From Acidobacteria bacterium RIFCSPLOWO2_12_FULL_68_19 (GTDB lineage Bacteria; Acidobacteriota; Vicinamibacteria; Vicinamibacterales; UBA2999): a DNA stretch of 64,000 nucleotides. The stretch lies in NCBI GenBank assembly GCA_001767525.1, contig MELF01000048.1, forward strand, positions 17,336 to 81,335, given 5' to 3'. Position numbers and translations under genes: made by a program. Under the pieces are notes generated by a model. It did no database searches. It was not told the DNA's origin and saw only the letters and a program-made list of their open reading frames with translations. Positions 49,848 to 64,000 of this stretch are shown here, in pieces (positions within the stretch are counted from its first letter, which is position 1; every line of letters starts with the position of its first letter).

Positions 49848-50051
49848 ATGGCCACGATGACTGGAACGATCAAGCGGTTGACGGACAAGGGATTCGGCTT
49901 CATTGCCACGGCCGACGGCACGGAGTATTTCTTCCACCAGTCCGCCTGCGCGAGCACGCGGTTCGACGATCTGCGCGAGGGGCAGACGGTATCGTTCACC
50001 GTGGGCCAGGGGCCCAAGGGGCCGCGCGCCGAAAACGTCAACCCGCAGTAG
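49848..50051 (+). CDS. Cold-shock protein (CspA family)
   Basis: 67 residues, a single cold-shock domain with RNP1 KGFGFI (residues 15-20) and RNP2 YFFHQS (about 27-32). It binds single-stranded nucleic acids. The ATG 49848 has AAAGGAAG upstream. It lies alone. The 160 bp that follow show nothing recognisable. Confidence 0.93.
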   Translation: MATMTGTIKRLTDKGFGFIATADGTEYFFHQSACASTRFDDLREGQTVSFTVGQGPKGPRAENVNPQ

Positions 50052-50213
50052 AGGCGAAGGTCCGGCGTAGGACCTGCGCTGTCACCGCCGCCAAAGATCG
50101 TCGCCGTCACGGCAGGCGACGTGTCCCGGCGTGAGCCTCGCCATGATTCCCCGTGTCCTGAAGCAGCAGCGCGACGGCCCGGGGGAATGTCTCGGCCGAG
50201 GTCCGGGCGCCTG

Positions 50214-52607
50214 CTACACCCGCACGGCCTCGAGCGCCGCAACCACCCGCTGCGGTCGGAACGGCACGCGACGGATGCGTGCGCCGGTGGCGTCGTAGAT
50301 CGCGTTCGCGATCGCCGCAATGAGCGGCTTGCACGCCGCCTCGCCCGCGCCGTAATGCGGCAGGTCGGGGCGGTTCGGATTCGGATCGCCATTGACCAGC
50401 ACCACGTCGATGCGCTCGGGCGTATCGAGGTGGGTGAGGGTCGGCGAGGTGCGCCAGTCGACGGTCGTCACCTTCTCGGTGTCGAACGTCACCTCCTCGT
50501 GGAGCGCGCGGCTGATGGAGTGGAGCATCGCGTTCTCCACGGTGTGCCGCAGCGCCTGCGGGTTCACGACCAGCCCGCAGTCGTGCGCGCAGACGAGCCG
50601 CTTCACCCAGACGCGCCCGGTGCGGCGGTTCACCTCCACCTCCGCAATCTGCGCCACCACGGTCTGGTTGCGATACGCATAGGCGAAGCCACGGCCGGCG
50701 AGCAGATCGCCGCCGCCGCGCGGCCCGGGCGAGGGGCGCGGCCGCCACCCGTACGCCTCGGCAGCCGCCTTGACACACGCAATCGACCGCGCGCGGCGGA
50801 AGCCGGCATCGTCCGGCAGGTCCGAAAGGACCCGCCCCACGCCGTTCATCTGGCCGGTGAGCAGGCGCAGACGGAACTCCACGGGATCCACCTTCGCCTC
50901 CGCCGCCAGCTCGTCGATGAACGACTCGCCGGCAAAGGTTGCCTGCGGTCCGTTCGGGTCGCGCAGGTTGCCGGTGCGGAGCGGCGTCTCCCACACGAGC
51001 GGCAGCGAGACGACGTGCATGAGGGATCGGCGGTTCGGGACGACGTACGTGTCCGACGGGGCGGAGGCGCCGCCCTCGGCCGCCTCCTGCCGCTGGCGGC
51101 CGGTGAGCTGCGCAATCAGCACCGTGTCGTGCTCGTTGTAGCCCAGGTGGCAGTAATCGGCGGCGCGCGCCTCGTAGTCGAGCGCCACGAGATTCCCCCG
51201 CGCGTCGAGTCCGCCGCGCAGCTTCACGAGATACGCAGGGCCCTTGGTGTCCCACGCATGCTCCTCGTCGCGCATCCACTGCACGCGCACGGGCCTCCCG
51301 AGCTTCTGCGCCAGATACGCCGCCTCGAACCCGGCATCGTCGGCGGCGGTGCGCCCGTACGCCTGCGGCCCGTGCAGCCAGAGGACGCGGACCTTCTCGC
51401 GCGGGATGCCGAGGAACTCGGCGATGCCGCTCCTCAGCCCGTACGACTTCATGTCGTTCGAGTAGATCGTGAGCTGCCCGTTGGACGGATCGGCCATCGC
51501 ATGCGCCGGCCCGATCGAGGTGTGCCCCTGAAACGGCACCTCGTACTCCGCCTCGAGGCGCACGGCCGCCCCGGCGAGCGCGGCCTCGATGTCGCCGTTC
51601 GCCTGCGGGTCGAGCGTGCGCGTCGGCTTGGTGCCGCGCATGTAGGCGAAGAGGTCCTCGGAGGCAGGGAAGGGCGCGGTGGCCGGCGTGCGCCAGTTCA
51701 CCTGCAGGCGGCGCGCCGCCGCAATCGCCTGCTCCTCGCGCTCGCAGACCACGGCCACGTAGTTCCCCTCGCGGACGACGGCGACGAAGCCGGGCATGCC
51801 GCGCACAGACGACTCGTCTATGCGCACCACGCTCGCGCCCGCTACGGGCGGCTTGACGTTGCGCGCGTGGAGCATGCCGGGAACCTTTGCGTCGACCGCC
51901 CACTTCGCGGTGCCGTTCACCTTGGCGGGAATGTCATCGCGCTGCGGCGACGTCCCGACGTATTTCATCTCCTGCACCGGCTTGAGCGTGGCGATGCCGG
52001 TCGTCTCGTTGATGTTCCTGCCGGTGAGCGTCACGCCGAAGCGGCGGCCGCCAATCAGCTCGCCGTACGTGACTTGCTTCGACGGGTCGGCCTTGACCGT
52101 GATGACGCCGTCGCTCACCGCCAGCCGATCGACCGGCACCCCGAAGTGCGTCGACCCCATGTCGAGCAGGACGCGCCGCGCCTCGGCGGCGACGCGCCGC
52201 ATCGGCCAGCCGTCCACCTGCAGCGCGTCGGAGCCGCCCGAGCCGCCCTGATCGACGGTGAGGTCGGTGTGTCCCATGATGCACGTGGTCCGCTCGAACG
52301 CCATGTCGAGCTCGTCGGACATGATCTGGCGGAACGCCGTGCCGGTGCCCTGGCCGAGGTCGGTCTTGCCGACGTAGAAGGTGGCGGTGTTGTCCTGGTG
52401 GATCACGATCCACGAGTCGAGCTGATGGAAGTCGGGATCGGGATAGGGGCCGGCGCCCTGGACCGCACCGGTCTGCGCGCCCGCGAGCGGCACGAGCGGC
52501 GCCGCGTGCGCCGCCGCCGTGAAGCCGACGACGAGGCGGCCGGAGGTCTTCAGGAACTCGCGCCGCGAGGGCGTGGAGACTGTTTCGAGGATGTCGTCAA
52601 TCCGCAT
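50214..52607 (-). CDS. Isoquinoline 1-oxidoreductase-like molybdenum subunit (IorB type)
   Basis: 797 residues. A Tat signal (SRREFLKTSGR near 14-24) shows export. The xanthine-oxidase-like Mo domains include GKTDLGQGTGTAFRQI near 85, a central aldehyde oxidase hammerhead, AYGRTAADDAGFEAAYLAQ near 420, and the late VRRVPFRPQRVV. The GxGEA segment with the catalytic Glu is GAGEAACKPL near 760. It hydroxylates an N-heterocycle or oxidises an aldehyde. The 2Fe-2S partner gene is 8 bp upstream. Confidence 0.88.
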   Translation of the reverse strand: MRIDDILETVSTPSRREFLKTSGRLVVGFTAAAHAAPLVPLAGAQTGAVQGAGPYPDPDFHQLDSWIVIHQDNTATFYVGKTDLGQGTGTAFRQIMSDELDMAFERTTCIMGHTDLTVDQGGSGGSDALQVDGWPMRRVAAEARRVLLDMGSTHFGVPVDRLAVSDGVITVKADPSKQVTYGELIGGRRFGVTLTGRNINETTGIATLKPVQEMKYVGTSPQRDDIPAKVNGTAKWAVDAKVPGMLHARNVKPPVAGASVVRIDESSVRGMPGFVAVVREGNYVAVVCEREEQAIAAARRLQVNWRTPATAPFPASEDLFAYMRGTKPTRTLDPQANGDIEAALAGAAVRLEAEYEVPFQGHTSIGPAHAMADPSNGQLTIYSNDMKSYGLRSGIAEFLGIPREKVRVLWLHGPQAYGRTAADDAGFEAAYLAQKLGRPVRVQWMRDEEHAWDTKGPAYLVKLRGGLDARGNLVALDYEARAADYCHLGYNEHDTVLIAQLTGRQRQEAAEGGASAPSDTYVVPNRRSLMHVVSLPLVWETPLRTGNLRDPNGPQATFAGESFIDELAAEAKVDPVEFRLRLLTGQMNGVGRVLSDLPDDAGFRRARSIACVKAAAEAYGWRPRPSPGPRGGGDLLAGRGFAYAYRNQTVVAQIAEVEVNRRTGRVWVKRLVCAHDCGLVVNPQALRHTVENAMLHSISRALHEEVTFDTEKVTTVDWRTSPTLTHLDTPERIDVVLVNGDPNPNRPDLPHYGAGEAACKPLIAAIANAIYDATGARIRRVPFRPQRVVAALEAVRV

Positions 52608-52615
52608 GGCGACCC

Positions 52616-53083
52616 TCACACAGTCTGCGCCGCGCCGGCGGCGCGCTTGATCGCGGCCTGAATCCGGTAGTAGGTGAAGCAGCGGCAGAGCACCGGCGCC
52701 ATCGCCTCGCGGATCTGCGCGTCGGTCGGCCGCGGGTTGCGCTGGAGGAGCGACACCGCGGTGAGCATCTGGCCGTTCTGGCAGTAGCCGCACGCCGGCA
52801 CCTGCTCGTCGATCCATGCCTGCTGCACGGGATGGAGCTTCCCGTCCTTCGCCAGGCCGTCGAGCGTGGTGACCTCGCCCTTGACGGCCGAGACGGGCGT
52901 GACGCACGACCGGGTGGCGGTGCCGCCAATGAGCACGGTGCACGCGCCGCACTGGCCGAGGCCGCAGCCGAAGCGGGGGCCGTGCAGGTCGAGATCGTTG
53001 CGCAGGACGTAGAGGAGCGGCGTCGCCGGGTCGACGTCGACCGTGCGCCTTTGTCCGTTGACGCTCAAGGTCAGATTGGCCAT
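52616..53083 (-). CDS. 2Fe-2S subunit of the Ior-type oxidoreductase (IorA type)
   Basis: 155 residues. The plant-type ferredoxin cluster is GCGLGQCGACTVLIGG...C near 39-60, and the second cluster is CGYCQNGQ and CRC near 98-135. It passes electrons from the Mo centre. It has no signal and is presumably carried out by the Tat signal of the large subunit. It is first in the two-gene operon. Confidence 0.92.
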   Translation of the reverse strand: MANLTLSVNGQRRTVDVDPATPLLYVLRNDLDLHGPRFGCGLGQCGACTVLIGGTATRSCVTPVSAVKGEVTTLDGLAKDGKLHPVQQAWIDEQVPACGYCQNGQMLTAVSLLQRNPRPTDAQIREAMAPVLCRCFTYYRIQAAIKRAAGAAQTV

Positions 53084-53133
53084 GCCCGGCGATTATGCCG
53101 CTGCTGACGGAAGAGTCAAGGGGAGGGAGAAGT

Positions 53134-53249
53134 TGGTGCGAGGGTGCGAGGGTGCGACGGTGCGACGGTGCGTCCGATGGTGCGAGGGTGCGACGGTGCG
53201 ACCGACGGTGCGACCGATGGTGCGAGGGTGCGACGGTGCGAGGGTGCAG
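53134..53249. repeat. GTGCGAGG short-unit (8 nt) tandem repeat block
   Basis: About 115 bp of GTGCGA(G/C)G units with occasional ACC/ATGG variants, between iorA and vapC. Period 8, no spacers. No inverted second arm is present. Confidence 0.75.
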
Positions 53250-53275
53250 GAAGAGCGGTCCCGTGGCGTCGCTGT

Positions 53276-53671
53276 CTACTCCGCGAACAGCGTGAATCCG
53301 GCCGCCGCGAAGTCGGGGTCGAACGCGAACGCCGTTGCCACACTGCGGCGGCGCATCACGAGAAAGCTGATCTGATCGACGAGGCTCACCTGGCGCTGCC
53401 GGGAGCGCTCCAGCGCCTCGACGCCGGCGGCGTGCAGGTCGTCGTCCACCCAGTCGACGACGAACGCGCCCACGTCACGGGCCAGCTTGACGGCCGCCGG
53501 GAGCCCCAGCCGCGCCTGGAGCAGCGCCATCGCCTCGACGAGCACATAGTTGTGCGTGAGCAGCGGCTCGCTCGTCTCGAGGAGTGCCTGCAGGCGCCGG
53601 AGGGCGGCCCGGTGGTTCGGATCGGCGGCATCGGCCCACGCGTAGATGGCGGAGGTGTCGACGAAGATCAC
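53276..53671 (-). CDS. vapC: VapC-type PIN-domain toxin
   Basis: 131 residues. The PIN RNase acidic set is visible: D5 in IFVDTSAIYAW, E46 in LVEAMAL, D99 in SLVDQISF and D118/D120 near the end. It is the toxin of the pair with the RHH antitoxin upstream (ATGA overlap). The RNA target is unknown. The short-unit repeat block ends 27 bp downstream. Confidence 0.88.
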   Translation of the reverse strand: MIFVDTSAIYAWADAADPNHRAALRRLQALLETSEPLLTHNYVLVEAMALLQARLGLPAAVKLARDVGAFVVDWVDDDLHAAGVEALERSRQRQVSLVDQISFLVMRRRSVATAFAFDPDFAAAGFTLFAE

Positions 53672-53922
53672 GGCTTCAGCGCCGCGGCGAGCGCCTGGTC
53701 GTGCCGTTCGGAGACGGGCGAGAGCCGATCCTGTCGCGACCGCCCGGCCCGGACCGACTGCATCTGGCCGATGGCGGTCGGCCGCGGGCGGACCGCCGCC
53801 TCGTCCAGTCCCTGCGCCACCAGTTCGCGCACGAGCGCCGACATCGAGCGCTGCTGCCGGAAGGCGCGCTCCCGCAGCCGGCGGTACGTGTCATCGTCGA
53901 ACTGCACGAGCGTCCGTTTCAT
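53668..53922 (-). CDS. vapB: VapB-type ribbon-helix-helix antitoxin
   Basis: 84 residues. The N-terminal RHH fold reads RTLVQFDDDTYRRLRERAFRQQRSMSALVRELVAQGL (about 3-40); the rest should bind VapC. The ATG at 53922 has no Shine-Dalgarno. A perfect 20-bp palindrome starts 1 nt upstream and contains a TATCAT -10 box, so the mRNA is probably leaderless and autorepressed. Confidence 0.85.
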   Translation of the reverse strand: MKRTLVQFDDDTYRRLRERAFRQQRSMSALVRELVAQGLDEAAVRPRPTAIGQMQSVRAGRSRQDRLSPVSERHDQALAAALKP

Positions 53923-53923
53923 G

Positions 53924-53943
53924 GCAACATGATATCATGTTGC
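53924..53943. promoter_or_regulatory. vapBC operator, perfect 20-bp palindrome
   Basis: GCAACATGATATCATGTTGC is its own reverse complement. It overlaps the predicted -10 (TATCAT) of vapB, the expected place for antitoxin autorepression. Confidence 0.75.
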
Positions 53944-54056
53944 TTCACTCGCGATCCCGGTGCGGGCAAAGGCGCCCCAGGCCGGCCGGATCGTCCCGCG
54001 GGCCGGGCTGGCCGGCAATGATCACGGGCGGAGCGGACGGGTATACCATGTGCGCC

Positions 54057-55223
54057 ATGACGACACAGAGCACCCGCCGCGAGCTTCTCAAGGGCGGCCT
54101 GGCGGTCGCCGGCCTCGGTCTGCTCGGCATCCCGGAGTGGGCGCTGCCCGCCCTCGCCCAGGGCGAGGCGCTCGTGCCCTTCACGGACCTTCCCGACAAC
54201 ATCAACTGGGTGCCGGCGCCGGATCGGCGCCTCTTCGACGTCCGCACCATCGACGGCGTCTTCACGCCGCGCGACAAGTGGTTCACCACGCAGCACTACG
54301 GTCACCCGGACATCGACCCCGCGACCTACCGCCTGAAGGTGTCCGGGATGGTGGAGCGGCCGCTGTCGCTCTCGCTCGACGAGTTGAAGAAGATGCGGGC
54401 GACCGAGCTCGTCTTCGGCTTCGAGTGCTCGGGCAACCGCCGCCCGATTCAGGGGCTCTCGAGCAACGGACGCTGGACCGGCGTGCCGCTGCGGGAGGTG
54501 CTGAACCGCGCCGGTGTGAAGGAGGATGCCCGGGAGGTCGTCTTCTTCGGCGCCGACCACGGCGAGGAGGAGCTGGAGTTCCGCGGCAACACCTTCAAAG
54601 TGGACCAGCAGTTCGGCCGGAGCCTCCCGCGCGACAAGGCGATCTCCCCGGAGCCGATGCTCGCCTACGCCCTTGGCGGCGAGCCGCTCACCAGGCACCA
54701 GGGCTTCCCGGTGCGGCTGCTCGTGCCGGGCTACTACGGCGTCTGCAACGTGAAGTTCCTCTCCGAGATCCACGCGCAGCACGACCCGTATCTCGGCAAG
54801 TACCAGGCGCGCTGGTACAAGACGCTGCGCGGCGAGACGATCAACGGCCAGGTGCACTGGAAGGAAGACGCCGTCACGCACATGCAGCTCAAGTCGTGGA
54901 TCGCCCGGGTGACCAAGGCGGGGAGCCGCCACAACGTGTTCGGGATCGTCCTGAACGACGGCACGCCGATCAAGACGGTCGAAGTCAGCATCGACGGCGG
55001 CCCGTGGCAGGCGGCGACGCTCGATCCGGCGACGATGAAGGACAAGTACGGGTGGAAGCTCTTCACCTACGCCTGGATGGGCGCCACGCCCGGCGAGCAC
55101 ACGCTCGTCTCGCGCGTCATCGACACGACCGGGCAGGTGCAGCCGACCTCGGAAGAGATCGCCAACAAGAAGACGTTCCTCGAGGACAACTCGCAGCACC
55201 CGCGCAAGGTGATGATCGCGTAA
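54057..55223 (+). CDS. SoxC/sulfite-oxidase-family molybdoenzyme
   Basis: 388 residues. A Tat signal (STRRELLKGGLAVAG) leads to a sulfite-oxidase-type Mo domain with C124 in GFECSGNRRP and the dimerisation domain (KTVEVSIDGGPWQAATL near 304). It is a distant paralogue of the soxC-like gene at 37342. TATACC at 54042-54047 favours ATG 54057 as a leaderless start over ATG 54048. The PQQ gene follows 4 bp downstream instead of a cytochrome. The substrate is unknown. Confidence 0.85.
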   Translation: MTTQSTRRELLKGGLAVAGLGLLGIPEWALPALAQGEALVPFTDLPDNINWVPAPDRRLFDVRTIDGVFTPRDKWFTTQHYGHPDIDPATYRLKVSGMVERPLSLSLDELKKMRATELVFGFECSGNRRPIQGLSSNGRWTGVPLREVLNRAGVKEDAREVVFFGADHGEEELEFRGNTFKVDQQFGRSLPRDKAISPEPMLAYALGGEPLTRHQGFPVRLLVPGYYGVCNVKFLSEIHAQHDPYLGKYQARWYKTLRGETINGQVHWKEDAVTHMQLKSWIARVTKAGSRHNVFGIVLNDGTPIKTVEVSIDGGPWQAATLDPATMKDKYGWKLFTYAWMGATPGEHTLVSRVIDTTGQVQPTSEEIANKKTFLEDNSQHPRKVMIA

Positions 55224-55227
55224 GGAC

Positions 55228-57027
55228 GTGTCGTTCACGCTTCTCGGTTCTCGACGTTCCTGGTTCGGGTTCGGGGTTCTGGGCGCCTGCACTGCCGCGG
55301 GCGTACTGCTCGCCGGCGCGCAGGCGCCCTCGATCGCGCCGGCGCCGGCGTTCACCGCGCGTGAGCTGACCGAGTACCCGACGACGGGCTGGCTCACGAG
55401 CGGTGGGGATCTGTTCAATCGCCGCTACTCGCCGCTCGCGCAGATCACCCGCGACAACGTGGCGCAGCTCAAGGCGGTCTGGCGCCGGTCGCTCGGCGGC
55501 TCGGGCGTCGGCGTCAAGTACTCCGGCGAGGCGCAGCCGATCGTCCACGACGGCGTCATCTACCTCGTCACCGGCGCCGACGACGTGTTCGCGATCGGCG
55601 TCGACTCGGGCGAGATCCGCTGGACGTACGACGCGAAGCTGGACGACACGATCGACGTCGTCTGCTGCGGCTGGACGAGCCGCGGCGTCGGCCTGGGCGA
55701 CGGGCGCGTCTACGTCGGCCAGCTCGACGGGAAGCTCGTCGCCCTCGACCAGCGCACCGGCGCGGTCCTCTGGTCCACGCAGGCCGAGCGCTGGCAGGAG
55801 GGGTTCAGCATCACGAGCGCGCCGCTCTACTACGACGGCCTCGTCATCACCGGCTTCGCCGGCGCCGAGTACGGCATCCGCGGCCGCGTCAAGGCGTACG
55901 ACGCGAAGACCGGTGCGCTCGTCTGGACCTTCTACACGATCCCCGGCCCGGGCGAAGTCGGCCACGACAGCTGGCCGAGGGACAACCCCGTCTGGCAGCA
56001 CGGCGGCGCCTCGGTGTGGCAGACGCCGGCGGTCGATCCCGAGCTCGGCCTCCTCTATTTCTCGACGGGCAATCCCGGCCCCGACTTCAACGGCGCCGTG
56101 CGCGCCGGCGACAACCTCTTCTCGGTCTCGATGGTCGCCGTCGAGGCGAAGACCGGGAAGTACCGCTGGCACTTCCAGCAGGTGCGCCACGACATCTGGG
56201 ACTACGACGCCACGAGTCCCGTGGTGCTGTTCGACCTCGAGGTCGGCGGCCGCGTGCGGAAAGGGATCGCCGAGGCGAGCAAGACGGGCTGGGTCTACAT
56301 CCTCGACCGCACGACCGGACGTCCGCTCGTCGGCATCGAGGACCGCCCGGTGCCGCAGGAGCCGCGGCAGGCGACCGCGCGCACGCAGCCGTACCCGGTG
56401 GGCGACGCGTTCGTGCCGCAGTCGATGACGATCGCGCCCGAAGGGTTCCGCCTCGTCAACCAGGGGCGCATCTTCACTCCGTTCTGGACCGATCCGGTCG
56501 TCGCCAAGCCGGGGCAGAGCGGCGGCGCCAACTGGCCGCCCAGCTCCTACGATCCGCGCACGGGCCATCTCTACGTCTGCGCGACGGACCGGACCGGTGT
56601 GTTCCGGGGCGGCGCGGACAACGAGATCCCGCCCGACGGCGAGCGTTACATCGGCGGCGCGTTCGGGAACATTCCGTTCGGCGTGACCGGCATCTTCACG
56701 GCGCTCGACATGCGGACCAACACGATCGTCTGGCAGCAGCAGTGGTCCGAGCGCTGCTACAGCGGATCGGTCGTCACCGCGGGCGGCCTGCTCTTCACGG
56801 GCCGCAGCGACGGCCGGCTCACGGCGCTCGACTCGCGCGACGGCCGGCTGCTCTGGGCGTTCCAGACGGGCGCCGGCGTCAACGCGCCCGCAAGCGTCTT
56901 CGAGTACCGGGGGCAGCAATACGTCGTCGTCCTGTCGGCGGGGAGCGCCTTCGCCGCGTCGCGCCGCGGCGACAGCGTCTGGCTGTTCGGCCTCGACGGG
57001 AAGATCGGGCCGGCGGAAACGCAGTAG
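55228..57027 (+). CDS. Exported PQQ-binding quinoprotein dehydrogenase
   Basis: 599 residues. Propeller blades carry docking motifs such as ALDQRTGAVLWST. A vicinal disulfide candidate V-C-C-G-W lies near 144, typical of PQQ alcohol dehydrogenases, and the catalytic Asp motif DIWDYDATSP is near 321. It has no fused heme domain. Its GTG start and signal peptide (SFTLLGSRRSWFGFGVLG) are encoded by half of the GTCGTTCAC repeat element. It is coupled to the molybdoenzyme gene 4 bp upstream and probably oxidises an alcohol in the periplasm. Confidence 0.87.
   Translation: MSFTLLGSRRSWFGFGVLGACTAAGVLLAGAQAPSIAPAPAFTARELTEYPTTGWLTSGGDLFNRRYSPLAQITRDNVAQLKAVWRRSLGGSGVGVKYSGEAQPIVHDGVIYLVTGADDVFAIGVDSGEIRWTYDAKLDDTIDVVCCGWTSRGVGLGDGRVYVGQLDGKLVALDQRTGAVLWSTQAERWQEGFSITSAPLYYDGLVITGFAGAEYGIRGRVKAYDAKTGALVWTFYTIPGPGEVGHDSWPRDNPVWQHGGASVWQTPAVDPELGLLYFSTGNPGPDFNGAVRAGDNLFSVSMVAVEAKTGKYRWHFQQVRHDIWDYDATSPVVLFDLEVGGRVRKGIAEASKTGWVYILDRTTGRPLVGIEDRPVPQEPRQATARTQPYPVGDAFVPQSMTIAPEGFRLVNQGRIFTPFWTDPVVAKPGQSGGANWPPSSYDPRTGHLYVCATDRTGVFRGGADNEIPPDGERYIGGAFGNIPFGVTGIFTALDMRTNTIVWQQQWSERCYSGSVVTAGGLLFTGRSDGRLTALDSRDGRLLWAFQTGAGVNAPASVFEYRGQQYVVVLSAGSAFAASRRGDSVWLFGLDGKIGPAETQ
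55230..55285. repeat. Half copy of the GTCGTTCAC element, used as a gene start
   Basis: GTCGTTCACGCTTCTCGG (55230-55247) is the left end of copies A and B, followed by TTCTCG/GGTTCGGG-type units. The right arm is missing. The preceding GTG start codon overlaps the element's first G. Confidence 0.65.
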
Positions 57028-57058
57028 CCCAACACCCAACGCCCAACACCCAACGCCG
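57028..57058. repeat. CCCAACA/CCCAACG 7-nt tandem repeat
   Basis: Four 7-nt units directly after the PQQ gene stop codon. The CCAAC theme returns in the hairpin at 58856-58916. Confidence 0.7.
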
Positions 57059-57115
57059 GTAGCCCGTCTGTGTCCTCTTGGCATCGGGGACGCCCGGTGG
57101 CATAGTGGCGGCACC

Positions 57116-57988
57116 ATGCGCCGGCTTCGTGTCGCGCTTCCCGTCATCGTCCTCGCGGGAGTGGTCGGGACCTCCGCCCGCTGGGCGGCGACCGCGCCCG
57201 AGCCGAAGCCGACCTTCCGCGTCGCCACCTGGAATATCCACAAGGGGGCGGACCGCCGCGGCACCTACGATCTCGAGCAGACGATTGACGCGATCGCCCG
57301 CTTCGACGCCGATCTCGTCGGCCTGCAGGAGGTCATGCGCAACCAACTGGAATCGAACTGCGACGACCAGCCGGCGCTCATCGCCGATGGCCTGCGGCGG
57401 CGCACCGGCCGGCCGTGGACCGAGGTGCACGTGAAGGCGTGGACGAGCGACAAGCGGTACTGCCTGGAGCAGGGCCGCGGCGACGGGGTCGAGACCGAAG
57501 GGGTGGCGTTCCTTGCGGCCGAGCCGATCGCGGTGTCAACTTCCACGCGGCTGCCCGAGAGTCGCGTTGCGGTGGAGGTGCGCCTCGCTTCGCTGCCCAG
57601 CCTGCCGGTCGTCGTCACGCATCTGGCGCCGAATCGGACCGATCGAGAGCTTCGCGTCCGGCAGTTCGCGACGCTGCTGCCGTGGACGGCCGCGCGCGGC
57701 CGGGGCATCCTCCTCGGCGACCTGAACGCCGAGCCCGACGCGGGCGAGCTCGCGCCGGTGCTGGCGCGCTACCGCGATTCGTGGGCGGAGGCGGCCGCCA
57801 AGGGGGCGACGCGCGGCGTCGCCACGGGCCAGACGCGGCCGCGCCGCGTCTCGCGCATCGACTACATCCTCCATGCGCCGGAGATCGCCCTGACGCTCGA
57901 GTCGGTGGAGGTCGTCGATACCGCGACGCTCGGTCTCGGCGAGGTCTCGGACCACCATCCCGTCGTCGCGACGTTCCGGCGGAAGTAG
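57116..57988 (+). CDS. Endonuclease/exonuclease/phosphatase (EEP) family protein
   Basis: 290 residues; a signal peptide or anchor (5-25) is followed by the EEP core: ATWNIHKG near 37-44, GLQEVM with catalytic Glu near 68, GDLNAEPDAGEL near 200, and SDHHPVVATF near 278 with the last His. It may cleave phosphodiesters of nucleic acids or lipids outside the cytoplasm. CATAGT (57101-57106) 9 nt before the ATG may be its -10. It ends 3 bp from the convergent methyltransferase gene. Confidence 0.83.
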   Translation: MRRLRVALPVIVLAGVVGTSARWAATAPEPKPTFRVATWNIHKGADRRGTYDLEQTIDAIARFDADLVGLQEVMRNQLESNCDDQPALIADGLRRRTGRPWTEVHVKAWTSDKRYCLEQGRGDGVETEGVAFLAAEPIAVSTSTRLPESRVAVEVRLASLPSLPVVVTHLAPNRTDRELRVRQFATLLPWTAARGRGILLGDLNAEPDAGELAPVLARYRDSWAEAAAKGATRGVATGQTRPRRVSRIDYILHAPEIALTLESVEVVDTATLGLGEVSDHHPVVATFRRK

Positions 57989-57991
57989 CGC

Positions 57992-58849
57992 CTACGTGCG
58001 GGCGCGACGGAACACGGCGAAGTCGTAGCCGATCCACCCGCGGGCGAGGCACTGCTGCAGCGCGCTCCCGCCGATGAGGTGGTCGAATCGCCCGCTGCCG
58101 ACCGGTAGCCATTGCAGCACCGTTGCCAGCACGTCGATGGCGCGATCGCGGCGCCGGCCGGTCTCCAGCATCGAGGTCAAGTCGGTCGTCGACTCGTGCT
58201 CGAAGCCGGCGCGCTCGGCCACCGCGCCAAGTTCGGTCCCTTCGAGCAGCGTGTTGACATGCCAGCCGCGGCGGAAGCGATCGACCGCGCGGGCCGCCTC
58301 GGCGCCGGCGACCGGCCGTCTGAAGTCGTCTGCGACGATGAGCAGGCCGCCAGGACGGACGAGGACGCGGCATTCGGCGAAGAAGCGCTCGGCGGACGGC
58401 CCATGGACGAACGACTCGATGGCGTACGCGAGGTCGGCGGCCGGGATGCCGGCGGGCAGACTCGTGTAGTCGGCCTCGATGCAGGCGACGCGGTCCGCGA
58501 GGCCCGCGGCCCGGATGCGTTCGGCCGCGAGCCGCGCCTGCAGCGGGCTCAGCGTCACGCCGGTGCCGAGAGAGGCGGGGAGCCGCTCGGCGAGGTAGCA
58601 GAGCGTGGCGCCGACGCCGCAGCCGAGATCGACGAGGTGCAACGGAGCCAAGGAAGCAGAGAGAAGCGAACGCGCGAGGCCGGCAATCAGCTCATCGACG
58701 TAGTGAAATGCCTGCGCGCGTGTGGTGACTCCGGGCCCCCACACGGCGCGATGGATCACACCGGCGCCGCCGCCCTGGCCGTAGCGGAGGAACGCGCGCG
58801 TGTGGCGGTCGTAGTAGCGGCGGATGTCTTCGGTATCGACGCGTGGCAT
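57992..58849 (-). CDS. Class I SAM methyltransferase (sterol/tocopherol MT-like)
   Basis: 285 residues. N-terminal YYDRHTRAFLRYGQGGG, motif I HLVDLGCGVGATLCYLAE near 72-89, GVTLSPLQARLAAERI near 98 and post-motif ADDFRRP near 172 are like small-molecule methyltransferases (UbiE/sterol type). The start is ATG 58849. It is last in a minus-strand cluster (MDR dehydrogenase, PTPS-like, GT4, methyltransferase, this gene), but a hairpin repeat separates it from the second methyltransferase. Substrate unknown. Confidence 0.8.
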   Translation of the reverse strand: MPRVDTEDIRRYYDRHTRAFLRYGQGGGAGVIHRAVWGPGVTTRAQAFHYVDELIAGLARSLLSASLAPLHLVDLGCGVGATLCYLAERLPASLGTGVTLSPLQARLAAERIRAAGLADRVACIEADYTSLPAGIPAADLAYAIESFVHGPSAERFFAECRVLVRPGGLLIVADDFRRPVAGAEAARAVDRFRRGWHVNTLLEGTELGAVAERAGFEHESTTDLTSMLETGRRRDRAIDVLATVLQWLPVGSGRFDHLIGGSALQQCLARGWIGYDFAVFRRART

Positions 58850-58855
58850 AGTCAA

Positions 58856-58916
58856 TTCCCAACTCCCACGATGCCAACTCCCAGGTTGGGAGTTGTGGCG
58901 TTGGGTGTTGGGAGTT
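58856..58916. repeat. CAACTCCCA short-unit hairpin between two methyltransferase genes
   Basis: The centre is a near-perfect inverted repeat (CCAACTCCCA against TGGGAGTTG, with GGT between), with outer AACTCCCA and TGTTGGGAGTT units extending both arms. No T-run follows on either strand, so it is not a normal intrinsic terminator. Confidence 0.75.
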
Positions 58917-59717
58917 TCATTGAAGCCACGCCGCGAGATCGTCGTGGCCGACCATGATGTGCGAGCGGCCCGCGTCGACGTGCGCGAAGCGGCGCGCGCG
59001 CCAGCCCGAAATCGCGGCGGCGCTCTCCGGCATCATCTCGGCGGCCGCCTCCGCCCAGCCGTCCACCAGCACCCGCTGCATCTGGGCGTCGGCCGGGCCA
59101 AGGCGCCAGTCGCTCGGTGCGCGCTCGACCTGATACCCGGCTTCCGCGAAGACGCGTTCGGCGGATGCGACGGCGTCGGGGCCGGCCGCCGGACCGCCCA
59201 GCCCTTTGTCACGCTTCTGGTGTCGGTTGAGCAGCTCCCGCACCCAGTCGTCTTCCGGCTCGACCGGATCGCAGGCCGAACGCCCGTTGTACGTGATGGT
59301 AAAGAGCGTCGAGGCGCCGGCCGACCGGCAGTGCCCGGCGAGCGACCGCAGCCAGGAATCGGAGACGAGATCGATCAGCGCCGACGCGGTGACGAGGTGA
59401 CGCCCGGTGAAGATCGACGGATCGAGCGTTCCGAGATCCGTCTGCCGCGCCTCGATGTCGACATGAAGATGTATGGTCCTCTCGCGCAGCTCCGTGAGCA
59501 GCGCCGCGCTCCGGTCGACGGCAAGCCACTGCTGCGGGCGCGGAAGGCGGGGCGCCAGGTAGCGGATGTTCGATCCCGTGCCGGCGCCGAGGTCGAGCAG
59601 GCGCAGCGGCGTGCGGCCGGCGAGCGTGTCCGCGACGCGGTGCATCAGCGTCTCGGACCTGGCGTGGGCGTCGGCCGCCTCGCGCAGCCGGAGCCACCGG
59701 GCGAGCGACTCATCCAT
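58917..59717 (-). CDS. Class I SAM-dependent methyltransferase
   Basis: 266 residues. Motif I LRLLDLGAGTGSNIRYLAPRL near 37-57, WLAVDRSAALL near 63 and DLVSDSWL near 117 are visible, then a long helical C-terminal part. The ATG 59717 lies inside the end of the GT4 gene (8-nt overlap), so the two are coupled. The substrate is unknown. The wording of motifs matches the methyltransferase usually found beside PTPS-like and GT4 genes in this cluster type (from memory). Confidence 0.8.
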   Translation of the reverse strand: MDESLARWLRLREAADAHARSETLMHRVADTLAGRTPLRLLDLGAGTGSNIRYLAPRLPRPQQWLAVDRSAALLTELRERTIHLHVDIEARQTDLGTLDPSIFTGRHLVTASALIDLVSDSWLRSLAGHCRSAGASTLFTITYNGRSACDPVEPEDDWVRELLNRHQKRDKGLGGPAAGPDAVASAERVFAEAGYQVERAPSDWRLGPADAQMQRVLVDGWAEAAAEMMPESAAAISGWRARRFAHVDAGRSHIMVGHDDLAAWLQ

Positions 59718-60765
59718 GGAGGTCGAGTGCGGCGAGCGCGATCGCCATCCGGTCGGCTGCGTGATTCCATGTCGGCAGGCGATCGCGCACGCGGCGCGCA
59801 CCTTCCGCCAGCCGCGCGCGCAGCGAGGCGTCGTTCAGCGCTCGAGTGAGTGCCTCGGTCAACATCGCCGTATCCCCGACGGGAACCAGCAGCCCTGCCT
59901 CGCTGCCGACCAGCTCAGCAATGGCGCCCGTCGTGGTGGCCACCACAGGCAGCCCGTGTGCCAGCGCCTCGGCCACCGCCATGCCGTATGTCTCCTGCCG
60001 CGTCGCGAGGACGAACAGATCCGCGCGGTCGTAGCAGGCGGCGAGCGCGTCACGATCCAGGTCGCCGGCGAGCGTCACGCGCTCGGCGAGGCCGAGTGTC
60101 GTGACGGCAGTCCGCACGCGTGCCGCCGTGGCAGCGTCGCGCGTGAGGCTCCCGGCGCACGTCAGGTGCCAGCTTCGCTCGGGCACGGCGGCAAGCGCGT
60201 GGAGCAGCATCTCGTGTCCCTTGGCGGCGTTCAGTGTACCGACGCAAAGGAGTTCCACTGGCATGCGCGTCCCCCGGGCGAGAGGCGCGGGATCGGTGCC
60301 CGGCTCGACGAGGGCGATGCGGCCGGGCGGCACGTCGTAGCGCGCCAGGAGCGGGAGCGCCGCTCTGCCGGTGACGACGACGAGCGCGGCCGCAGCGAGC
60401 GCGCGGCGCTCATTGTCCTCGACGAGCGCGGCGGTGTCGCCGTCGAGTCCGACCGTTGCCGCAACCGGCAGGTGCATCAGCGCCACGATGCGCAAACGGG
60501 AGGCTTCGCGAGCGATGAGGTTGGCCATGGCGCCGAGCGCCAGGCTGTCGACGATGGCGATCGCGCCCGTGCACACATCCGCCAACTGACGGCGTGCCCG
60601 GTCGAGCGCCGCCTGCGTCGGAGAGGGGAAGCTGGCATCGAGCTCCACGACTTCTGTGCGCCAGAGGCGACGGCGGAGCGTTTCCACCATGCGGCGGTCG
60701 TAGATGGAGCCGCCGGTAGGCGCATCGAGCGGGCCGGGAACGAGCAGAACGATATTACGAGCCAC
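59710..60765 (-). CDS. Family 4 glycosyltransferase
   Basis: 351 residues, GT-B fold. An N-terminal acceptor half (VPGPLDAPTGGSIYDRRMVETLR near 9-31) precedes a donor half with LCVGTLNAAKGHEMLL near 173 and the EX7E motif ETYGMAVAE near 258-266. It transfers a sugar from a nucleotide donor to an unknown acceptor, probably at the membrane. It overlaps the PTPS-like gene by 11 nt and the methyltransferase by 8 nt. Confidence 0.88.
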   Translation of the reverse strand: MARNIVLLVPGPLDAPTGGSIYDRRMVETLRRRLWRTEVVELDASFPSPTQAALDRARRQLADVCTGAIAIVDSLALGAMANLIAREASRLRIVALMHLPVAATVGLDGDTAALVEDNERRALAAAALVVVTGRAALPLLARYDVPPGRIALVEPGTDPAPLARGTRMPVELLCVGTLNAAKGHEMLLHALAAVPERSWHLTCAGSLTRDAATAARVRTAVTTLGLAERVTLAGDLDRDALAACYDRADLFVLATRQETYGMAVAEALAHGLPVVATTTGAIAELVGSEAGLLVPVGDTAMLTEALTRALNDASLRARLAEGARRVRDRLPTWNHAADRMAIALAALDLHG

Positions 60766-61162
60766 TCACCGGGCCTTCGAACGAGGCGGACGCGACGTGC
60801 GATTCGTGCAGCACGACGCGGATCCCTTCGATCCGGGCGGCGCCGGGCCCGAGATCGCCCCTCCGGATCGCCACGACCAGCCGGTCGAAGACGACCCGGG
60901 CGAGCACCTCGGTCGTGGTGTTGCTCCCGGCGAGCTCCGGCATCTCGTCCAGGTTGCGGTACGTGAGGTCGGCGAGCGCGCGGTGGAGCGCGTCGGCCGC
61001 GCGGCCGATGTCGACGACGATGCCCGTGGGCTCGAGGTGGGAGCGCTTGAACTCGACGTCGACCACGTAGGTGGCGCCGTGCAGGCGCTGCGCCGGACCG
61101 AACACCTCGCCCTTCAGGCTGTGCGCAATCATCATGTGGTCGCGCACCGTCACGCTGTACAT
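60755..61162 (-). CDS. PTPS/QueD-fold protein with altered active site
   Basis: 135 residues, the size and fold pattern of 6-pyruvoyl/6-carboxy-tetrahydropterin synthase. Against E. coli QueD, Zn ligands H16 and H31 are kept (IAHSL, RLHG), but the third is Ala (HGATY for HGHxY). The catalytic Cys27 position is Ala, the D70-H71 pair is Thr-Tyr (in LTYRNLDE), and only the pterin-anchoring Glu (LHESH) remains. It should therefore not catalyse the usual reaction. It may bind a pterin-like or other ligand or do new chemistry. Tightly coupled to GT4. Confidence 0.82.
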   Translation of the reverse strand: MYSVTVRDHMMIAHSLKGEVFGPAQRLHGATYVVDVEFKRSHLEPTGIVVDIGRAADALHRALADLTYRNLDEMPELAGSNTTTEVLARVVFDRLVVAIRRGDLGPGAARIEGIRVVLHESHVASASFEGPVSGS

Positions 61163-61174
61163 CGGCGATTCCTC

Positions 61175-62152
61175 CTACGTGTATCGGATTCTGTGGCAGA
61201 GCGTGTCGCCGGGTTCGCGAGCGAGCCTCGCCATCACCTCGGGCAGCCGCTCGAAATCGCTCTCGCCGGTGATGAGCGCATCGAGCGCCGGCTCCGCCAG
61301 CAGCCGCAGGGCGAGCTGCATGCGCCGCCGCGCGTCCCACCGCGCCCGCTGCGACGGGGCGACGCGGCCCACCTGCGACGAAGCAATCGTCAGGCGCTTC
61401 GCGTGAAACGGGCCGCCCAGCGGCAGGGAGGCCTCCCGGTCGCCAAACCAGCTCAACTCGACAATGGTCGCCTCCACCGCCGCCAGCTCCAGCGCCAGCG
61501 CGAGGCCGGAGGGGTTGCCGCTCGCATGCATCACGAGGTCGGCATCGCGGCCGGCGGCCGCCGGCTCGGCGAACGGCACGCCGAGCGCCGCGGCAACCGC
61601 CGCTCTCCGAGGATTGGTGTCGATGAGCTCGACCTCGCAGCCGGCGATGCGCGATGCCAGCCACGCGACGAGGCACCCGACGGTGCCGGCGCCAATCACC
61701 GCGATACGATCGCCCACGTGCGGCCGGCCGTCCCACAGCCCGTTGATCGCCGTCTCCAGGTTCGCCGCCAGCACCGCGCGCGCCGGCGGCACCTCGTCCG
61801 GGACCGGGTACGCAGAGTCTGCCGGCACAATGAAAGCCGTTTGATGCGGATGCAGCACGAAGACGGCGCGGCCGGCGAGCGCGTCCGGTCCCCGCTCCAC
61901 GCGGCCGACGGCTGCGTAGCCGTACTTCACGGGACCCGGAAAATCGCCCGCCTGAAAGGGCGCCCGCATCCGGTGCCACTGGCTTGGCGGCACACGACCG
62001 TCGAAGACGAGCGCCTCGGTGCCGCGGCTGATCCCGCTGTACAGGGTTCGCACGAGCACCTCGCCACCCGACGGCGTTCCGAGCGACTCGGTCCGGACCT
62101 CTCCGCGGCCCGGAGCGGCCACCCAGAAGGCGCGGGCCTCCTCGCGCTGCAT
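61175..62152 (-). CDS. MDR-superfamily dehydrogenase lacking catalytic zinc ligands (BchC-like)
   Basis: 325 residues. The alcohol-dehydrogenase order is kept: GroES-like part (1-130), then a Rossmann part with AVIGAGTVGCLVAWLA near 140 and ELIDTNPRR near 163, where the Asp suggests NAD(H). The zinc Cys site reads YSGISRGTE (Ser for Cys), and the usual GHE motif is KYGYA, so no catalytic zinc is expected; the pattern recalls BchC. ATG 62152 is 14 bp from the divergent CDP-alcohol phosphotransferase start. First gene of the minus-strand cluster. Confidence 0.82.
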   Translation of the reverse strand: MQREEARAFWVAAPGRGEVRTESLGTPSGGEVLVRTLYSGISRGTEALVFDGRVPPSQWHRMRAPFQAGDFPGPVKYGYAAVGRVERGPDALAGRAVFVLHPHQTAFIVPADSAYPVPDEVPPARAVLAANLETAINGLWDGRPHVGDRIAVIGAGTVGCLVAWLASRIAGCEVELIDTNPRRAAVAAALGVPFAEPAAAGRDADLVMHASGNPSGLALALELAAVEATIVELSWFGDREASLPLGGPFHAKRLTIASSQVGRVAPSQRARWDARRRMQLALRLLAEPALDALITGESDFERLPEVMARLAREPGDTLCHRIRYT

Positions 62153-62166
62153 GTCTGGACATTTTG

Positions 62167-62874
62167 ATGCGGTACCCACACCGTTACAATGTGGGCGTCG
62201 CCGTTGCGCTTGGCGTCGCGGGCACCGCCGTCGCCGGTTCACTGGCCGGTGTGTGGCTCGGGGCGGGCGCGGCGTATCCGGTGACCGCCGCCCTTGTCTG
62301 CGCGGCGGCGCTCGGAGCGATCGTCAGGTTCGCCGGCCGCGAGCATCCGTTCACGGCGTTCGGCGCCGCGAACGCCGTGACCACGATCCGGGTGGCGCTC
62401 GTGGCGCTGGCGGCGGGGCTCGTCGGGCGAGACGCGGATGCTGCGGCGCTGTGGTTCGCGCTCGCCCTGGCCGGGACGGAGGTGGCGCTCGACGGTGTTG
62501 ACGGCTGGCTCGCCCGGCGGAGCGGCCTGGCGAGCGCGTTCGGGGCGCGCTTCGACATGGAGACCGACGCGCTCTTGATCCTGGTGCTCTCGGTGCTCGT
62601 CTGGCAGCACGAGAAGGCCGGCGCGTGGGTGCTGCTGTGCGGGCTGATGCGGTACCTGTTCGTGGCCGCCGGCTGGCTGCGGGCGTGGCTCCGGCGACCG
62701 CTCCGCTCGACGTTTCGCGGCAAGGCGGTGGCGGTGATGCAGGTGGCCGGTCTGGGCGCCGCGCTCGCGCCAAGCGTGCAGCCCCCCCAGAGTACGGTCA
62801 TCGCCCTGGCGACGCTCGCCGCGCTCGCGTGGTCGTTCGCAGTCGATATTCTGTGGCTGAAGAGGCAGCACTGA
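62167..62874 (+). CDS. CDP-alcohol phosphatidyltransferase family protein
   Basis: 235 residues, about six membrane helices. The complete signature DG-x2-AR-x8-G-x3-D-x3-D is present at 112-134 (D112, G113, A116, R117, G126, D130, D134). It joins an alcohol to a CDP-activated lipid or polyol. The ATG 62167 (TTG 62164 alternative) diverges by 14 bp from the MDR dehydrogenase, so the two promoters overlap and the gene likely belongs to the same system. Confidence 0.9.
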   Translation: MRYPHRYNVGVAVALGVAGTAVAGSLAGVWLGAGAAYPVTAALVCAAALGAIVRFAGREHPFTAFGAANAVTTIRVALVALAAGLVGRDADAAALWFALALAGTEVALDGVDGWLARRSGLASAFGARFDMETDALLILVLSVLVWQHEKAGAWVLLCGLMRYLFVAAGWLRAWLRRPLRSTFRGKAVAVMQVAGLGAALAPSVQPPQSTVIALATLAALAWSFAVDILWLKRQH

Positions 62875-62885
62875 ACGCGAACTGC

Positions 62886-62924
62886 GTCGTTCACACTTCT
62901 CACTTCTCTAGAAGCGTGAACGAC
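62886..62924. repeat. Short GTCGTTCAC hairpin element, copy C
   Basis: A 39-bp hairpin with 9-bp perfect ends GTCGTTCAC (62886-62894) and GTGAACGAC (62916-62924); the inner CTTCTC unit is shared with copies A, B and the half copy at 55230. It lies between the phosphotransferase and doxX-like genes. Confidence 0.8.
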
Positions 62925-62954
62925 AGTCTCTAGACGTGGTTCCTGGGAGTCGCC

Positions 62955-63371
62955 ATGCCGCTTCGTGTGCTCTCGATCGCTCTCGGCGTCTTTCTGCTCT
63001 TCATGGGCTTCGACAAGATCGACTGGTTCCTGGACGGCGGCGTCCTCGCGCGCCGGCTGCAGGAGTGGCGCGGTACGGCGCGTCCGATGGCGCGGTGGTA
63101 TCTCGACACGATTGCGATTCCAGGTGCGCCGGTGTTCGCGCGCGTGGTGCCGCTGGCCGAGCTGTCGGCGGCGGCGGCGCTCATCCTCGGGTACTGGGTG
63201 CGGTGGGCAGCCGCGCTGGCGCTGCTGATGGTCGTGAACATCCACTTCGCGGCCGACATCATCTTCCGCTACGACTACCTGATCAACGCCTACGGCCTGC
63301 CGATCCTCGGCGGGCTGCTCGCGCTGGCGCTCGGAGGGAAGAAGTTGCCCATGAGTGTGTCGAGGAGGTAG
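62955..63371 (+). CDS. DoxX-family membrane protein
   Basis: 138 residues, four membrane helices in DoxX order (LSIALGVFLLFMGFDKIDWF near 6; AELSAAAALILGYWVRWAAALALLMVV near 68-94; AYGLPILGGLLALALGG near 115-131). Members are linked to respiration or redox stress, but the function is mostly unknown. GGGAG precedes the ATG. Confidence 0.8.
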   Translation: MPLRVLSIALGVFLLFMGFDKIDWFLDGGVLARRLQEWRGTARPMARWYLDTIAIPGAPVFARVVPLAELSAAAALILGYWVRWAAALALLMVVNIHFAADIIFRYDYLINAYGLPILGGLLALALGGKKLPMSVSRR

Positions 63372-63437
63372 TGCTCACCCCGACGGAACACCGAGACACC
63401 GAGGGTGTAAACACTGCGGCGTCTATCGCAATGCGCT

Positions 63438-63818
63438 TCAGCCACGAAGGCGCATCCGAGCGCTGCGTTTCGCCACCGACGATCGATGCGCCTTCGCCGG
63501 CTGCACGCGCCGGTTAGCCGGGCGGCTTCGCGTTGCCAGCCACCGCTCGAACGACTCGGCGCTCTCGCCCGAAGACAGCCCCCGGAGTAACCCGTCGATG
63601 GAGATGTCCTCATCGAGCAGCGGCCAATGAATGCCGATGCCGGGTCCTATCAGTTGCCACTGCTGCCGCTCCTTCATGGAGCCATGGGCCAGTCGGGGGT
63701 ACCATGCAACCGGCACCGACACCGTACGGCCGTCGTGGAGTTCCACGATCAAGGACTCGCGAGTGACGCGCACGTTCCTAGCGGTTGCCGCCTCGGTCGC
63801 TGGGCTTGAAGTACTCAT
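63438..63818 (-). CDS. DUF2442-domain protein
   Basis: 126 residues. The domain is plain: VRVTRESLIVELHDGRTVSVPVAWYPRL near 17-44, then WQLIGPGIGIHWPLLDEDISIDGLLRG near 54-80. DUF2442 genes usually pair with a DUF4160 gene, and the remnant of one overlaps its 5' end here. The pair is often listed as toxin-antitoxin-like, but function is not proven. The last 25 residues are basic and not part of the domain. Confidence 0.85.
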   Translation of the reverse strand: MSTSSPATEAATARNVRVTRESLIVELHDGRTVSVPVAWYPRLAHGSMKERQQWQLIGPGIGIHWPLLDEDISIDGLLRGLSSGESAESFERWLATRSRPANRRVQPAKAHRSSVAKRSARMRLRG

Positions 63819-63906
63819 GCCATGCCTTCAGGAGTTCCGCCTCGTGTTGCTGCACGAGACCTTGGATTCGAGTCAATTCGTTCGGTGCAAACCCGTAGTT
63901 GTATGC
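63778..63906 (-). pseudogene. DUF4160 gene, N-terminus cut off by an IS element
   Basis: The C-terminal tail of DUF4160 is clear (ELTRIQGLVQQHEAELLKAWHEYF), ending at the stop 63780-63778 inside the DUF2442 start. Upstream of about 63906 the sequence changes to the end of an IS element, so the first 50 or so residues of the protein are missing. Confidence 0.75.
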
Positions 63907-64000
63907 CTGACGGTGCGGTCCGGGGACAAGGGTAACAGAACAGTCCAGGGACATGGGTAACACATTCAGCCACACTCGAGTCGAGGTGCTCGATGCCGTG
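63905..64000 (+). mobile_element. Left end of an IS481-like insertion sequence
   Basis: From about 63905 the sequence has two copies of a GGGACA(A/T)GGGTAACA motif (63923-63936, 63949-63962), as seen at ends of many IS481-type elements, then the start of a transposase. The right end is outside the window. The exact boundary cannot be fixed without an empty site. Confidence 0.65.
63953..64000 (+). CDS. IS481-like transposase, N-terminal fragment at window edge
   Basis: 16 codons from ATG 63953 read MGNTFSHTRVEVLDAV and run off the window. This resembles the start of the helix-turn-helix region of IS481-type transposases as recalled. The ATG lies within the IS end motif. Confidence 0.55.
   Translation, partial: MGNTFSHTRVEVLDAV

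Follow-up and report, generated by a model that had tools for sequence, protein, structure and literature searches.

A conserved gene cluster around the PTPS-IV protein in bacteria and haloarchaea, with a candidate pathway from GTP to a pterin-like membrane compound

The archaeal riboflavin route begins with GTP cyclohydrolase IIa, a creatininase-family deformylase and the reductase ArfC. These first three enzyme families recur in a conserved gene cluster, the core of which we analyzed in a 64,000-nucleotide stretch (the window) of contig MELF01000048.1 from Acidobacteria bacterium RIFCSPLOWO2_12_FULL_68_19. Beyond these steps the two systems part: the riboflavin route goes on with a deaminase and lumazine synthase, whereas the cluster continues with an MDR-type dehydrogenase, a protein of the 6-pyruvoyl-tetrahydropterin synthase (PTPS) fold, a GT4 glycosyltransferase, a class I S-adenosylmethionine (SAM) methyltransferase (MT1) and a CDP-alcohol phosphotransferase (CDP-OH). 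By its sequence, the PTPS-fold protein is a member of the published subfamily PTPS-IV of COG0720, whose solved orthologue is SCO6650 (3d7j) and whose signature is FGPAQ (PMC5445326). In the accessible part of PMC5041015, PTPS-IV is stated to take part in archaeal F420 synthesis, a role given there as unpublished. As far as their accessible text goes, published accounts of PTPS-IV and SCO6650 offer F420 or no role, and the MDR–GT4–MT1–CDP-OH core, the haloarchaeal version and the shared reading frames described below are absent from it. No description of the gene set, of SCO6650 or of SCO6655 was found in the literature searched, most subscription papers lying outside that search.

The genes around PTPS-IV form a conserved set and not a chance neighborhood. 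We consider it an even call that the core of this set would turn GTP into a pterin-like compound that carries a sugar and a methyl group and is predicted to be bound to a membrane lipid. The core genes in the window, with families assigned by Pfam, are as follows.

58917-59717, minus strand: MT1, class I SAM methyltransferase
59710-60765, minus strand: GT4 glycosyltransferase
60755-61162, minus strand: PTPS-IV protein with the FGPAQ signature, catalytic residues lost and Glu120 kept
61175-62152, minus strand: MDR-type dehydrogenase without zinc ligands
62167-62874, plus strand, ATG start: CDP-OH, divergent, with a complete motif

A gap of 12 bp separates MDR from PTPS-IV, PTPS-IV and GT4 overlap by 11 bp, GT4 and MT1 overlap by 8 bp, and 14 bp lie between MDR and the divergent CDP-OH gene, whose frame in the open reading frame listing begins at TTG 62164, upstream of ATG 62167. 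Coordinates and Pfam matches thus agree with the six open reading frames, the families, the tight coupling on the minus strand and the 14-bp divergence given in the initial annotation. A promoter and terminator scan found none, with shuffled sequence giving 0.3 and 1.1.

A scan of named species-level genomes with a PTPS-IV query from Thiodictyon returned at least 590 relatives, and the best 80 of 590 were analyzed; being the best matches to one query, these named loci were not drawn at random, and contig ends truncate many of them. Neighbors were counted in stop-to-stop frames rather than gene calls, at a profile match of E < 1e-10, and relatedness among loci inflates both the counts and the distance correlations given below. 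By record name the loci comprise 51 Pseudomonadota, 25 Actinomycetota, 3 Acidobacteriota and 1 Gemmatimonadota. Co-occurrence of the five families within 10 kb, the check proposed in the initial annotation, was borne out: MDR lies near PTPS-IV in 80, GT4 in 79, MT1 in 77 and CDP-OH in 68 of the 80 loci. Genes of the GTP side are also near, namely RibD_C (58), RibA (38) and creatininase (37), with at least one of the three present in 68/80; counting one label per frame instead gives 64 for MT1 and 36 for creatininase. Other neighbors are LPG_synthase_TM (49), an AlkP/sulfatase-type protein (20), a family represented by an FkbM methyltransferase (20) and MdoH (10). MDR, PTPS, GT4 and MT1 are all present in 76 loci, and all of these plus CDP-OH in 65.

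Gene order is conserved as well. MDR is upstream of PTPS-IV on the same strand in 79/80 loci (67 within 150 bp) and GT4 is downstream in 78/80 (76 within 150 bp), while the commonest layout has CDP-OH divergent and adjoining MDR. Nearly all cluster matches fall within 6.5 kb, the range from 6.5 to 10 kb holding only two CDP-OH matches and one creatininase match. In 12 of the 80 loci, one of these cut by a contig end, GT4 and MT1 share one open frame, and their fusion into one polypeptide in some species probably reflects successive steps. In one locus, on a Gemmatimonadales contig (L081:7709-9550), creatininase and RibD_C share a frame, which likewise suggests successive steps. Recurrence, suspected in the initial annotation for Proteobacteria, thus extends beyond close relatives to four bacterial phyla and to Halobacteria, and the set survives the refuting test proposed there. 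PTPS-IV was also found in 20 plasmid records, and 12 plasmid regions, including six haloarchaeal ones, were examined. One of the plasmids, from Microbacterium, carries two genes for CrcB fluoride exporters (L043:5191-6062) within a few kb of the cluster.

The window's PTPS protein matches PF01242 with 78.7 bits and falls below the QueD cut-off (39.8 vs 89.25 bits). An AlphaFold2 (AF2) model of PTPS-IV matches 3d7j, QueD and PTPS structures, with weaker matches to further pterin enzymes of the T-fold. The FGPAQ signature occupies residues 21-25 and is nearly fixed among 103 bacterial sequences (F 103, G 103, P 101, A 103, Q 99). PTPS-IV shares with QueD and 6-pyruvoyl-tetrahydropterin synthase the common fold, two of the three zinc-binding His residues and Glu120, which is invariant in 103/103 sequences and which we take to be the pterin-anchoring residue. 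It differs from them in that the third zinc His and the catalytic Cys are each replaced by Ala in 103/103 and that, of the Asp-His pair, His is lost in every sequence and Asp in 97/103 (kept in 6). These losses uphold the earlier description of a dead-site PTPS fold and exclude identity with QueD or the tetrahydrobiopterin enzyme. That the fold either binds a ligand or does new chemistry, as was also suggested, stands in part: a pterin- or pyrimidine-like ligand is probable given the GTP-side genes in the set, while the protein itself is not new. In the haloarchaeal cluster proteins (L039, L129-L131), all three zinc His are kept and Glu occupies the Cys position in 4/4. With all three His kept there, loss of zinc may be confined to the bacterial branch.

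The other core proteins were examined for the same kind of evidence. In an alignment of the window's MDR and those of 11 named loci with one reference, L139, a zinc-type MDR from the same genome, the zinc-motif Cys is Ser and the structural four-Cys loop is deleted in 12/12, in keeping with the earlier call of a zinc-less enzyme. The genome also has MDR paralogues L140-L143 and a PTPS paralogue, L133, which lie outside the residue comparisons given here. Identity with BchC is rejected (NCBIfam TIGR01202, 53.9 bits against a cut-off of 291.25). CDP-OH matches PF01066 with 62.2 bits, and all residues of what we take to be the family motif, DxxDGxxARx8GxxxDxxxD, are invariant in 10/10 aligned sequences, so the motif is full, as had been noted. 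GT4 matches PF13692 (104.8 bits) and PF00534 (99.4 bits), with the Glycos_transf_1 domain present, and its cluster profile resembles the MshA and PimA/PimB types. The pterin-glycosylating GT4 enzyme UDP-glucose:tetrahydrobiopterin glucosyltransferase (5zer, 5ze7) matches this profile at E 4.6e-10 but is not the nearest GT4, Tll1590, MshA and PimA/PimB all scoring higher.

RibA near PTPS-IV is PF00925, named GTP_cyclohydro2 in Pfam, and RibD_C is PF01872. In the accessible part of PMC5445326, the PF00925 neighbor of PTPS-IV is labeled GTP cyclohydrolase I/FolE2; as Pfam names this family GTP cyclohydrolase II, the link was misnamed there. At the position of Escherichia coli Tyr105, the 38 cluster RibA proteins carry Tyr (24), Met (7), His (6) or Ile (1), with creatininase near in 18/24, 7/7, 6/6 and 1/1, respectively. 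A need for creatininase where RibA is of the Met or His type is borne out in one direction only: all 14 non-Tyr proteins have creatininase near, but so do 18 of the 24 Tyr-type ones. The best solved match of the RibD_C profile is 2,5-diamino-6-ribosylaminopyrimidinone-phosphate reductase (6p8c), presumably the archaeal type that reduces before deamination, and the two cluster RibD_C proteins scanned contain the RibD_C domain with no deaminase domain. The presence of GTP cyclohydrolase II or IIa, RibD_C and creatininase in the set makes a GTP-derived substrate probable, and with it a pterin- or pyrimidine-like intermediate held by the PTPS fold. Replacement of FolE in folate synthesis is rejected, since FolE is above cut-off in 27/28 cluster genomes including the window's own (only G048 lacks it).

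The cluster has a diverged counterpart in haloarchaea. In six plasmid regions found through MDR and counted by profile matches, MDR is present in 6/6, a diverged PTPS in 5/6 (not in Natrarchaeobaculum), MT1 in 5/6, a CDP-OH homologue near MDR in 4/6 and creatininase in 1/6; GT4 is strong in 3/6 (166-190 bits), with two more matches of only 38-39 bits further off. GTP cyclohydrolase IIa directly precedes MDR in 3/6 (for one, as Pfam GCH_III). This enzyme, unrelated to RibA, catalyzes the step with which the bacterial route would begin, and its place next to the same MDR is the strongest indication of GTP as the substrate.

Close relatives were surveyed in 39 genomes including the window's own, probably of Acidobacteriota (Vicinamibacterales), the group to which a protein 79% identical to the window's is assigned, with cluster MDR called at E <= 1e-40. 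PTPS-IV occurs in 18/39. Cluster MDR occurs in 16/39, all with PTPS-IV, and in 0/21 genomes without it; in the two PTPS-IV genomes lacking cluster MDR (G005, G017), PTPS-IV sits at a contig end. Among 17 larger loci of relatives, the core is again present (PTPS 17, MDR 16, CDP-OH 15, GT4 15, MT1 15), along with RibA (13), AlkP/sulfatase (12), a second SAM methyltransferase, MT2 (10), RibD_C (10), the DoxX family (7), an endonuclease/exonuclease/phosphatase-family (EEP) protein (5), LPG_synthase_TM (1) and creatininase (1), and most remaining flanking families are confined to one locus each. In a genome of the same genus (G001) the set is split, with RibA, AlkP, DoxX, CDP-OH, MDR and PTPS on one contig and GT4, MT1, MT2, EEP and RibD_C together on a second; in G011 a cluster-type GT4 lies on a separate contig. 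In the window's own genome the cluster lies at the end of its contig (C48), and contig C47 carries, 2.6 kb from its end, genes for a stand-alone RibA and a membrane protein of the AlkP/sulfatase type (L047:7265-9617). Because the order and orientation match those of relatives such as L026, the two contig ends possibly adjoin, and the C47 pair is probably the missing remainder of the cluster in the window. The RibA and AlkP/sulfatase-type genes are 5 bp apart, and beyond them is a frame that by eye looks transposase-like.

Based on these findings, we propose a plausible sequence of reactions for the conserved set. First, GTP would be opened by GTP cyclohydrolase II (IIa in haloarchaea), and where the cyclohydrolase stops early creatininase would act as a formamide hydrolase, yielding 2,5-diamino-6-(5-phosphoribosylamino)pyrimidinone. 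The stand-alone archaeal-type RibD_C would then reduce the ribosyl to a ribityl chain, leaving the ring undeaminated. Next, the zinc-less MDR is predicted from its family chemistry to oxidize a secondary hydroxyl of the ribityl chain to a ketone, the same one to which the Amadori shift of GTP cyclohydrolase I leads. PTPS-IV, which keeps its Glu but has lost the zinc site, Cys and Asp-His pair, may help closure of the second ring; the 2-amino-4-oxo edge of an undeaminated diaminopyrimidine fits the conserved Glu. GT4 and MT1 would subsequently glycosylate and methylate the product. CDP-OH would join it to a lipid or phospho-alcohol, and LPG_synthase_TM and the membrane protein of the AlkP/sulfatase fold are candidates for moving or modifying it. 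Of the membrane-linked glyco/phospho-alcohol product suggested in the initial annotation, for which the phosphotransferase would act first and oxidation come last, the glycosylated, methylated, membrane-linked end remains plausible, while the GTP-side genes, which lie outside the window, had been missed. A more specific version, which we think unlikely though worth stating, is that bacteria and haloarchaea have a second FolE-independent route to a membrane neopterin-type pterin, in which II or IIa would open GTP, an ArfC-type reductase and the zinc-less MDR would reduce and re-oxidize the ribose chain, between them accomplishing the Amadori shift for which GTP cyclohydrolase I needs no partner, and zinc-free closure by PTPS-IV would be followed by glycosylation, methylation and linkage to a phospholipid.

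Several observations weigh against the proposed pathway. The folds of GT4, MT1 and MDR do not fix a substrate. Protein distances correlate at r 0.78-0.88 for core pairs and at r 0.45-0.61 for RibD_C against PTPS, MDR, GT4, MT1 and CDP-OH; as RibD_C tracks the core less well, it may have been recruited to the cluster more than once. RibA, RibD_C and creatininase are all missing nearby in 12/80 named loci, and CDP-OH is missing nearby in 12/80, some loci being cut by contig ends in both cases. In 3/28 genomes (the window's own, G004 and G011) the only RibD_C match is of RibD length, in the own genome a 402-aa RibD at 115.8 bits with no dedicated RibD_C found, which suggests that the RibD_C reduction is not obligatory as written. 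The own genome has a single creatininase, which lies away from the cluster and reaches 127 bits, where those of clusters score 295-328.

The strongest alternative, which we regard as a minority possibility, is an ordinary glycolipid or envelope glycan, with PTPS-IV binding an unrelated ligand and RibA, RibD_C and creatininase serving as accessories. The resemblance of GT4 to the MshA and PimA/PimB types would suit this, as would CDP-OH and the LPG_synthase_TM, AlkP/sulfatase and MdoH neighbors, which act on lipids or glycans; it accords poorly, however, with GTP-side genes near 68/80 loci, with the replacement of II by IIa beside haloarchaeal MDR and with the invariance of the presumed pterin-anchoring Glu. 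Slightly less probable is that the same start leads to a soluble natural product, a diaminopyrimidine or a pterin, with nothing lipid-linked and CDP-OH serving another step. CDP-OH is indeed the least constant core member (68/80), and in L042 the cluster has neither CDP-OH nearby nor an adjoining GT4, but the commonest layout places CDP-OH divergent beside MDR, and a homologue persists near MDR in 4/6 haloarchaeal regions.

A flavin- or deazaflavin-type product, with RibA and RibD_C feeding a side branch toward riboflavin or F420, is improbable. Both are riboflavin-pathway families, and PMC5041015, in its accessible part, does assign PTPS-IV the unpublished F420 role. Against this stand the absence of a deaminase domain from the scanned RibD_C proteins and an Rfam search, FMN riboswitch included, that gave 0 matches in 6 loci and positions 50000-64000 of the window, which also rejected the candidate of riboswitch control. 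Moreover, when 30 PTPS-IV genomes (10 actinobacterial, 20 others) were searched for CofG (FbiC), it was above cut-off in 9/10 actinobacterial and 0/20 other genomes, and weak matches below cut-off were all that was seen in 18 of the 30, 17 of them among the 20 non-actinobacterial ones. F420 synthesis as the general role of PTPS-IV is therefore rejected. Finally, although every family is common by itself, a chance neighborhood can be dismissed on the co-occurrence counts in the 80 named loci and 39 related genomes, since the set persists in four bacterial phyla and in haloarchaea, has shared frames and, when split, has its parts regrouped elsewhere.

Three flanking genes with Pfam matches are peripheral to the set.

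57116-57988, plus strand: EEP-family protein, a convergent neighbor
57992-58855, minus strand: MT2, second SAM methyltransferase, lineage-specific
62955-63371, plus strand: DoxX-family membrane protein

MT2, which the initial annotation had counted with the set, does not belong to its conserved part: it occurs in 3/80 named loci against 10/17 loci of close relatives. DoxX (2), EEP (1) and cytochrome b (1) are similarly rare among the named loci. The 61-bp gap between MT1 and MT2 (58856-58916) contains, by eye, a self-complementary stretch of the type ccaactccca/tgggagttgg, unreported by the terminator scan. The EEP gene and MT2 converge with their ends 3 bp apart (57116-57992), a position kept in 5/17 loci of relatives. 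Further off on the minus strand, at 53276-53922, the translations of a small gene pair resemble, by eye, a PIN-domain toxin and its antitoxin, and a short repeated DNA motif at 53144-53260 is visible only as residue repeats in translations.

If the proposed pathway is true, the set would be the source of a novel pterin or pyrimidine, be it a natural product or a cofactor, although each enzyme class is already known, and it would be represented by the PTPS-IV relatives, at least 590 of them in a single collection of species-level genomes, and by the diverged haloarchaeal version. A role would be found for PTPS-IV, a structure of which (3d7j) was released in 2008, the F420 suggestion would be replaced for most of its carriers, and the annotation "6-carboxytetrahydropterin synthase" on its genes would be corrected. 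What RibA paralogues do apart from riboflavin synthesis would likewise become testable.

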